Positions 19,579 to 30,046 of a stretch of DNA of 42,848 nucleotides are shown in pieces. Both the position numbers and the translations under genes were made by a program. Numbering within the stretch: the first letter of the stretch is position 1; each line of letters opens with the position of its first letter. The stretch comes from Nitrosopelagicus sp. REDSEA-S31_B2 (GTDB taxonomy: Archaea; Thermoproteota; Nitrososphaeria; Nitrososphaerales; Nitrosopumilaceae). Location of the stretch: contig LUPB01000004.1 of the NCBI GenBank assembly GCA_001627235.1, positions 3,372 through 46,219 on the forward strand, given 5' to 3'. Under the pieces are notes generated by a model. The model was given only the letters and a program-made list of their open reading frames with translations, made no database searches and was not told where the DNA came from.

Positions 19579-19718
19579 AGAGTTAAACCTTGAAATTTAA
19601 CATAAATACGTATCTAACTCTGACAAATTTGGATCTGAGAAAGAGATAATAACATTCGATTTTTCCCAAGGATCCGTAGATATGACACTAAAAACTAACT
19701 TTGAGGGGATTTTCTAAC

Positions 19719-21202
19719 ATGTCTAACACAAGTTCAAAAGTACATGACCAATTAGTGGAATTTGGAATAACTCCAAAGTCCATTTACCGAAATCTCTCTG
19801 TTGAAAAATTGGTAGAACAATCAGTCACGAAACCATTGATTGGGGTGATGTTAATAGACAATTCCCAACTGAAAAATTCAATTCAATATTTGAAAAAATG
19901 AAAAAACATGCAGAAGGAAAAGACTTGTATGTTTTTGATGGATTTGTAGGCGCTGATACTCAAAATCGATTAGCAATTCGTGTAATTAATGATCATGCAT
20001 GGCAAAATCTCTTTTGTAGACAATTGTTTGTTCGACCATCAAACGAAGAATTAGAATCACACGAGCCTGACTTTACCATCGTATGTTTAAATGACTTTGA
20101 AACAATTCCTGAAATTGACGGAACCAGAACTAATGTCTTCATTTTGATTAATCTTTCAAAGAAAATTGTTCTCATTGGTGGAACAAACTATGCCGGTGAG
20201 ATGAAAAAATCAATGTTTGGTGTCATGAACTATCTTATGCCAAAAAAAGACGTATTCCCAATGCACTGTTCTGCAAATATTGGTAAAGATGGTGATACTG
20301 CATTATTCTTTGGTCTATCTGGCACTGGAAAAACAAGCTTATCTGCAGACCCTGAACGCATGCTCATTGGTGATGATGAACATGGTTGGTCTGAAAGTGG
20401 AGTTTTTAATTTCGAAGGTGGATGTTATGCAAAATGTATCAATCTTAACGAAGAAGCCGAACCACAAATTTGGAACGCAATAAAATCTGGCGCAGTTTTA
20501 GAAAATGTTGTAGTAAACAAAGATACTCTAAAGCCTGACTTTGATGATGGAAGTTTAACTGAAAATACACGTGCAGCATATCCTCTTGATTACATTCCAG
20601 GTGCTGTAATTCCAAGTGTAGGTGGTCATCCTAAAGTCATAATATTTTTGACCGCTGATGCATTAGGTGTTTTACCACCTGTTTCAAAATTAACAAAAGA
20701 AAGTGCAATGTTTCATTTCATGTCAGGTTACACAAGCAAACTTGCTGGAACCGAACGTGGAATTAAAGAACCAAAGGCAACATTTTCAGCATGCTTTGGT
20801 TCACCATTCATGCCTCGCCCAGCATCAGTCTATGCAAAAATGTTAGGAGAGAAAATTTCTGAACACAATACAGTTGTTTATCTCATCAACACTGGTTGGT
20901 CTGGTGGTCCATATGGTGTTGGAAAAAGAATTAGCATAAAGTATAGTCGTGCAATGGTTACTGCTGCATTGACTGGTAAATTTGACTTGATAAAATTCAG
21001 ACATGATGATACATTCAATCTGGATGTTCCTACCGAATGTCCGGGAGTACCTTCTGATGTATTAGACCCAAAAAATACATGGATTGACAAAGACTCCTAT
21101 GATTTATCAGCAAAAAAATTGGCACAGATGTTTAGTGAAAACTTTACAAAATTCAAAGATGCCTCACCTGAAATTAAAGAAGCTGGACCTCAAATTCAAT
21201 AA
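19719..21202 (+). pseudogene. pckA: Phosphoenolpyruvate carboxykinase (ATP type), disrupted by an internal frame-shifting deletion near 19823-19826 as assembled
   Basis: N-terminal frame [36 protein letters not shown] then other frame [44 protein letters not shown]...[18 protein letters not shown]...; the expected TGRSPxDKF segment is missing. Confidence 0.85.
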
Positions 21203-24419: not shown

Positions 24420-25544
24420 ATGTTTGATAATCTAAAAAAAGCATTTTCTAATGTATCGACTGGGTTTAGTGAAAAAGATCTTAATGAAAAAGACATTGAA
24501 GATGTATTATTTGAATTAGAAATTAACTTACTTGAATCTGATGTAGCCACAGAAGTAATTGATTCTATCAAAGATAGTCTAAAAGAAAAAATAATTGGCT
24601 CCCGAGTAGAGAAGAAAAACATACAAAACTTTGTCAAACAAAGTTTAATTGAATACATTAGTGAGACATTTGATAATGCTGGTCATGTTGATTTAATTGA
24701 CAGGATTAATCAGAAAAAGGACTCAAATGAACCATTTATCGTAGTCTTTGTTGGAATTAATGGAACTGGTAAGACAACTTCCCTTGCAAAAGTGGCAAAT
24801 CTCTTAAAAAATGAAAAATTTTCTTTGGCTATTGCTGCTGCAGATACTTATCGTGCAGGTGCAATTGAGCAATTACGTGAACATACGAATAGACTAAATC
24901 TCAAAATCATTGCACAAAATTATGGTTCTGACCCTGCAGCGGTCGCAAAAGACGCTGTCTTGTATGCAAAATCTCACAAAGTCGATTGTGTATTGGTAGA
25001 TACTGCAGGCAGAATGCAAACCAGCTCTAATTTAATGGAACAAATTGAAAAAATCACTAAAGTTGTAAAGCCTGACATGAAAATCTTTGTTGGTGACTCT
25101 TTAGCAGGAAATGATACTGTAAATCAAGCACGTGAATTTCATAATCATGTAAAATTTGATTGTTCAATTTTAACAAAAAGTGATGCTGATGCTAGAGGCG
25201 GTGCAGCATTATCTATTGTTAAAGTAACATCTTCTCCGATTATCTATGTTGGAGTAGGACAAGAATATGATGATATTGTAAAATTTGATAAACCAGAACC
25301 TGAATCAGAACCAGAACCACAACAACCAGAACCTGAACCAGAACCTGAACCTGAACCACAACAACCACAACAACCAGAACCTGAAAGTGGAGATAGTGAT
25401 GATCCTTTCGATGGTATTGAAACTGATGACATCAATGATTATGCTGATATGTATGATGTACCTCCACCAGAAACTGATGATGAGGCAAAAAAATTAGCTA
25501 CCAAAATTAAGAAATGGATACAAGACGGAAGACCAAAACCATAA
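24420..25544 (+). CDS. ftsY: Signal recognition particle receptor FtsY with atypical Pro-Glu-rich C-terminus
   Basis: NG domain: VGINGTGKTTSLAKVANLL, ADTYRAGAIEQLREH, DTAGRMQTSSNLMEQ, TKSDADARGGAAL, YVGVGQEYDDIVKFD; then PEPESEPEPQQPEPEPEPEPEPQQPQQPEPES. Confidence 0.92.
   Translation: MFDNLKKAFSNVSTGFSEKDLNEKDIEDVLFELEINLLESDVATEVIDSIKDSLKEKIIGSRVEKKNIQNFVKQSLIEYISETFDNAGHVDLIDRINQKKDSNEPFIVVFVGINGTGKTTSLAKVANLLKNEKFSLAIAAADTYRAGAIEQLREHTNRLNLKIIAQNYGSDPAAVAKDAVLYAKSHKVDCVLVDTAGRMQTSSNLMEQIEKITKVVKPDMKIFVGDSLAGNDTVNQAREFHNHVKFDCSILTKSDADARGGAALSIVKVTSSPIIYVGVGQEYDDIVKFDKPEPESEPEPQQPEPEPEPEPEPQQPQQPEPESGDSDDPFDGIETDDINDYADMYDVPPPETDDEAKKLATKIKKWIQDGRPKP
25291..25386 (+). repeat. Low-complexity Pro-Glu/Gln coding repeat in ftsY
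   Basis: Reiterated ccagaacctgaa/ccacaacaa hexamer-like units encoding (PE)n and QQP. Confidence 0.9.
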
Positions 25545-28204: not shown

Positions 28205-28684
28205 ATGGCAACTCGATTAAGAAAAACTAGAAAACTAAGAGGCGGACGACATATGGGTTGGGGTCAAGTAGGACAACACCGTTCATTTGGTCACAAAGGT
28301 GGTTTAGGTCGTTCTGGACATCTCAAACATCTTGCAAGTACTGTTATCAAAGAAGACCAAGATCATTTTGGTCATGAAGGAACACATTCTCCACATCCAA
28401 GTATTACGAAAGTTTGGATAAATGTCAGAGATCTGAATGATCTATTCTCTAAATCTGGAAAATCAGAAAACTCAAAAAATACTCTAGACCTTGAATCACT
28501 AAAAATTGAAAAATTGCTTGGTGGTGGTCAAATAAACACTGCATATACAATCAAAGTAAAACAGGCTACTCCATCTGCAATTGAAAAAGTAAAACAAGCA
28601 GGCGGCGAAGTCATTCTTCCTGTCCAAAAGACTGAGGAAAAAACTGAAGAAAAAACTGAAGATGTAGAAAACAACGATGGCTGA
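28205..28684 (+). CDS. rpl15: Ribosomal protein uL15
   Basis: MATRLRKTRKLRGGRHMGWGQVGQHRSFGHKGGLGRSG; follows uL30. Confidence 0.92.
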   Translation: MATRLRKTRKLRGGRHMGWGQVGQHRSFGHKGGLGRSGHLKHLASTVIKEDQDHFGHEGTHSPHPSITKVWINVRDLNDLFSKSGKSENSKNTLDLESLKIEKLLGGGQINTAYTIKVKQATPSAIEKVKQAGGEVILPVQKTEEKTEEKTEDVENNDG

Positions 28685-30046
28685 AGGAACACTAACTGAA
28701 ACTATACGAAAAATTGTAGCTAAGGCTGAACCTTATGTTCCACAAGTTCCAAAACCAAAAAAGAAAATTCCTCTACAAGCAAAAATTCTCTGGACTTCTG
28801 GTTGTTTAGTAATCTATCTTGTAATGGGTCAAACTCCTTTGTTTGGTGCAACTGCCCCTGAATTTGATTTCTTAGCCTTTGCAAGAGTTATTTTTGCATC
28901 TGCACAAGGTTCTCTTGTTGAATTAGGAATTGGACCAATTGTAACTGGTGGATTGTTAATGCAATTACTTCGTGGTTCTGATATACTAAAATTTGATTTC
29001 AAGAATCCTGCTGAGCGTGGTGTATTTCAGACTGCAACAAAACTTGTAACGTATGTTGTTATTGTAGCTGAGTCAATTGTGTATGTAATTGCTGTATACG
29101 GGCCTGGAATTTCTGAGCCGCATGTGATGTATATTATGATAGGGCAGATGATGGGTGCGTCTATTATTGTAATGTTCCTCGATGTGCTCAACAAATTCTT
29201 TGGAGTCTGTTTAGTCCAATGCCTGCAGGTGATGGTGGGGCTATCGGCGTATTTCCGTTCATTGGTCAAATGGCGGCTTATGGTGATGTCGCAGACGCGT
29301 TGTTCCGGTCAAACCAGCTGCCGAGTCTATTTGGCTTGTTCTTAACTGCAGGAATCCTAGCTATTCTTGTTTACACGCAAGGAATGAAGGTTGAAATTCC
29401 TATAGTATCTACAAAGTATAGAGGCTTTGCAGCTACATATCCAATTAAGATGATGTATGTTTCTAACATTCCAGTAATCTTGGCATCTGCACTTACTGCA
29501 AACTTTGTATTTATTGGGCAGATGTTTTGGTCACAGTTTAACCCGCGTAACAATAATGCATTTATGAATTTTCTAGTACAATTCGATCCTACTGCTCCGT
29601 CATCACCTATTGGTGGTATTATTTACTATGTTACTCCTCCTCGTGGATTGGAAATTGTCGCACAAGATCCTCTTAGAGCAGTTGGTTATGTAATATTCAT
29701 GGTTGCAATTGTAATTGTATTTGGAAGATTATGGGTGGAATTGGGAGGTCTTTCTCCAAAGAAAGCTGCTCAGAATCTCTTAGATGCTGATGTACAAGTA
29801 CCAGGATTTAGACGTTCAAACAAACCAATTGAAACATTACTTAACAGATACATTCCATCAGTTACAATTATCGGTTCTGCAATTCTTGGATTGATTGCAG
29901 GAGTTTCAGATGTATTAGGAGTATTTGGTACCGGAATTGGAATTTTACTTTCTGTAGATATTCTAATTAATTACTATAACCAATTAGTAAAAGAACAGGT
30001 GGAAGTTGTCATGCCACGGTTGGGTGCTTTACTTGGTAGATCGTAA
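28677..30046 (+). pseudogene. secY: SecY/Sec61-alpha translocase, split by an internal frame-shifting deletion near 29183-29186 as assembled
   Basis: Frame 1 to ...MMGASIIVMFLD then frame 2 AQQILWSLFSPMPAGDGGAIGVFPFIGQ...MPRLGALLGRS; the segment with the SecY GxGSGISLFI signature is absent. Confidence 0.88.

Follow-up and report, generated by a model that had tools for sequence, protein, structure and literature searches.

The interruption of secY in the stretch of DNA analysed here (the window; 42,848 nucleotides, taken from contig C34, bases 3372-46219, of a draft genome that is 85% complete and comprises 1,009,131 bases on 86 contigs, with the closest named records being those of Candidatus Nitrosopelagicus) is, with very little room for doubt, an assembly artefact, in which 61 bases were lost at contig joining, while the cells carry the ordinary intact gene of 1431 nt. 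The loss is ascribed to an artefact and not to biology because the same kind of loss affects dozens of other genes in the draft, whereas a biological deletion should be exceptional in this genome. The statement of the first-pass annotation that secY is broken describes the assembled letters, but is not supported as biology.

The gene spans positions 28677-30046 of the window and is composed of two pieces in different frames:

28677..29184, plus strand: 5' part of secY, corresponding to positions 1-508 of the 1431-nt gene of the relatives; 87-89% blastn identity with close relatives in the genus; match to positions 1-96 of Pfam PF00344.
29184..29185, plus strand: secY junction, at which 61 nt known from the relatives and encoding most of SecY signature 2 are absent, a probable contig join without N; 0 query bases against 61 in relatives, and the two edges share no sequence.
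29185..30046, plus strand: 3' part of secY, corresponding to positions 570-1431 of the gene of the relatives, in the other frame; 85-88% blastn identity with close relatives in the genus; match to positions 125-306 of Pfam PF00344.

Frame 1 reads as SecY throughout from ATG 28677 to GASIIVMFLD (GAT 29181-29183), and the C-terminal frame restarts with AQQILWSLFSP (GCT 29186-29188) and ends at 30046 with the stop TAA, which confirms the coordinates of the frame 1 end and the frame 2 start noticed at first reading. The gene is, accordingly, no single continuous open reading frame, with the switch between 29184 and 29185, a frame change that is almost certainly attributable to assembly. In the blastn comparison with the same-genus relatives, the window gene falls into the query blocks 1-508 and 509-1370, with 0 query bases between them, while the corresponding blocks of the relative L020 (1267-1774 and 1836-2697) are separated by exactly 61 bases. 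The early estimate of a missing length of 1 mod 3 was therefore right, the exact value being 61 nt, by which the frame is broken. The loss spans SecY signature 2 (DETIQKGWGLGSGISIFIMAGV), and the absent 61 bases code for most of ETIQKGWGLGSGISIFIMAGV; the first estimate of about 20 missing signature residues agrees with the 61 additional bases that the relatives carry there. The open secY of the relatives encodes DETIQKGWGLGSGISIFIMAGVAQQILWSLFSP, from whose D the window skips to AQQILWSLFSP, and the junction lies between GTTCCTCGATG on its left side and TGCTCAACAAATTC on its right side.

An unusual way of expression (programmed frameshift, RNA editing or a split SecY), making secY work as written, is scarcely credible, the least so of the explanations considered. 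The about 20 missing signature residues are not restorable by any frame change, as was correctly foreseen for simple programmed frameshifting, no relative has the same secY structure, and the downstream piece appears to be devoid of a ribosome-binding context or a family precedent.

The base-by-base comparison with 11 same-genus secY genes revealed the 61 nt in the relatives, with all 11 genes open, 1431 nt long and free of the loss, so that the shared shortened form, which had been named as an observation against a broken gene, occurs in none of them. SecY signature 2, absent from the window, is present in 80 of the 80 thaumarchaeal records fetched by similarity, and an open frame of at least 190 aa precedes it in 78 of them; the two exceptions are a record interrupted by a single stop codon and another that runs off its contig. 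The single in-frame TAG of the former (L252, a groundwater Thaumarchaeota draft) is located just after signature 2, at about bases 253-255, where relatives have a glutamine codon, and is possibly a base error.

A real 61-nt deletion, with secY as a pseudogene and another SecY encoded in the 15% of the genome that was not recovered, is very improbable; if true, a marine ammonia-oxidising archaeon with a secY pseudogene would depend on a second, unrecovered SecY. A second SecY was not found in the draft, and at 85% completeness its absence is not proven. However, a single SecY is found in each relative of at least 90% completeness, and the rest of the window gene is free of decay, with DNA identity to the closest relatives of 85-89% on both sides of the junction and mostly conservative protein changes. 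Among the three options listed at first reading, the assembly error is strongly favoured; the second secY was not found in the recovered genome, and the unusual mechanism received no support, since the relatives have the gene intact and dozens of unrelated genes of the draft bear a lesion of this kind.

The missing 61-nt segment was also not found elsewhere in the draft; its only partial match, C30:13262-13303, is located in an unrelated open frame and appears to be due to chance. The exact junction had no match in the genome collection, from which the window's own record may, however, be left out. A chimera of two lineages was rejected, as the same relatives match both sides of the junction equally well, and a repeat-mediated deletion was rejected by the junction without shared sequence. 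In a same-genus draft, G002, the contigs C78 and C75 both end within the same part of secY, and therefore this stretch may be hard to assemble.

The extent of such losses was assessed with the complete same-genus genome G041 as the yardstick, 892 kb of its 1,232 kb (about 72%) being used; its open reading frames were mapped onto 921 kb of the draft, including approximately 31 kb of N, mostly short contigs masked whole. Of 688 G041 orthologues, 24 are split across frames in the draft. The nucleotide census, which covered 602 kb in 667 genes and counted only deletions that measured at least 38 nt and had well-aligned flanks, gave 40 internal deletions against 2 insertions. The deletions have a median length of 112.5 nt and are indifferent to the frame, with lengths mod 3 of 0, 1 and 2 in 17, 15 and 8 cases, respectively, 23 of the 40 changing the frame. 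Of their junctions, 22 had no overlap, 11 overlapped by 1 nt and 7 by more, which is close to the fractions of about 0.53 (0 nt) and 0.29 (1 nt) that we estimated from the base composition. A part of the 17 in-frame deletions is probably natural, such as those in low-complexity linkers.

The genes bearing deletions include those for RNA polymerase A', class I lysyl-tRNA synthetase, DnaK, the complex I subunits L and N (NuoL and NuoN), phosphoglycerate kinase (PGK), PEP carboxykinase (PEPCK), 3-hydroxypropionate-CoA ligase and biotin carboxylase, with CO2-fixation enzymes among them. It is not plausible that a living cell has lost all these mostly essential genes, and the pseudogene explanation of secY would need the same excuse for RNA polymerase A', lysyl-tRNA synthetase and DnaK. 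In the survey of 31 genus genomes, three genes that are split in the draft, for a LolC/E-like permease, DnaK and PEPCK, were found uninterrupted in a single frame, or truncated only where a contig ends, in nearly all the other genomes possessing them.

The gaps marked by N were compared with the distances in G041, wherever runs longer than one base had both flanks mapping to one G041 place. All six measurable gaps (43 N against 132 nt, 53 against 226, 7 against 168, 10 against 142, 38 against 160 and 48 against 124) are too short, by 76-173 nt. The last of them, C34:3324-3371, directly precedes base 1 of the window. Read pairs spanning a gap must exceed its length, so that gap sizes need correction, and negative gap estimates have been described (PMC3158087). 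A bias of 76-173 nt would bring the estimate for a gap that truly measures 61 nt down to zero or below. The secY gene would then have been broken by a contig join in a scaffolding or gap-closing step, as follows. Two contigs flanking an unassembled stretch of secY would have been ordered, probably by paired reads, as in a short-read draft; their distance would have been underestimated to zero or less, and the scaffolder or gap closer would have abutted them end to end without N, leaving out the 61 bases of the gap, with the result that SecY signature 2 disappeared and the frame was shifted.

A real deletion present in only some cells of the population, be it a strain variant or dying cells, and taken up from them into the assembly, is even more improbable than the pseudogene with a second SecY. 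The diversity of marine Nitrosopelagicus populations speaks for it, but it leaves unexplained both the occurrence of about 40 deletions across the draft and the too-short N gaps.

Apart from secY, the window is collinear with G041 except for two discontinuities, between 19822 and 19823 and near 25285-25291, the former of which appears to be a further join:

19822..19823, plus strand: second join of the same kind, with 109 nt absent inside the gene for ATP-type PEP carboxykinase, which spans about 19701-21199; G041 comparison and genus survey.

The 109-nt loss at this direct join breaks the PEP carboxykinase frame, and the gene is intact in nearly all other genus genomes. At 25285-25291 the window is shorter than G041 by 243 nt, a number divisible by three, and the site lies in or beside a proline/glutamate-rich repetitive coding stretch; this difference may be natural length variation.

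As a control to the census, 22 loci of approximately 4 kb around secY in other genus genomes (88 kb) contained one discrepancy of at least 30 nt, in the fragmented draft G002, against approximately 6 expected in those 88 kb at the rate of the draft under study. This discrepancy is a shortfall of 111 nt relative to G041 near base 2119 of the locus L076 (G002:C78), and thus more than one assembly may have the defect.

Accordingly, the secY break does not change the biology and serves as a caution. Internal deletions occur in the draft about once in every 15 kb of coding sequence and are not marked by N, so that broken, shortened or split genes from this draft should not be taken as real. False pseudogenes will come from species-representative drafts with such a defect.

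By its family features, the window gene corresponds to SecY (PF00344) of the archaeal Sec61-alpha type, as in Candidatus Nitrosopelagicus, with both pieces over the family cut-off of 32.2 bits (120.1 and 51.1 bits) and a location after ribosomal protein genes, as is usual for secY, but differs from it in the absence of Pfam positions 97-124 and the frame broken by the 61-nt loss. The draft, known here from its assembled sequence, resembles the scaffold gaps with underestimated or negative sizes described for paired short reads (PMC3158087) by the loss of tens to about 200 nt at junctions without shared sequence, by the random frame and the scattered positions of the losses, and by the visible N gaps that are systematically too short.
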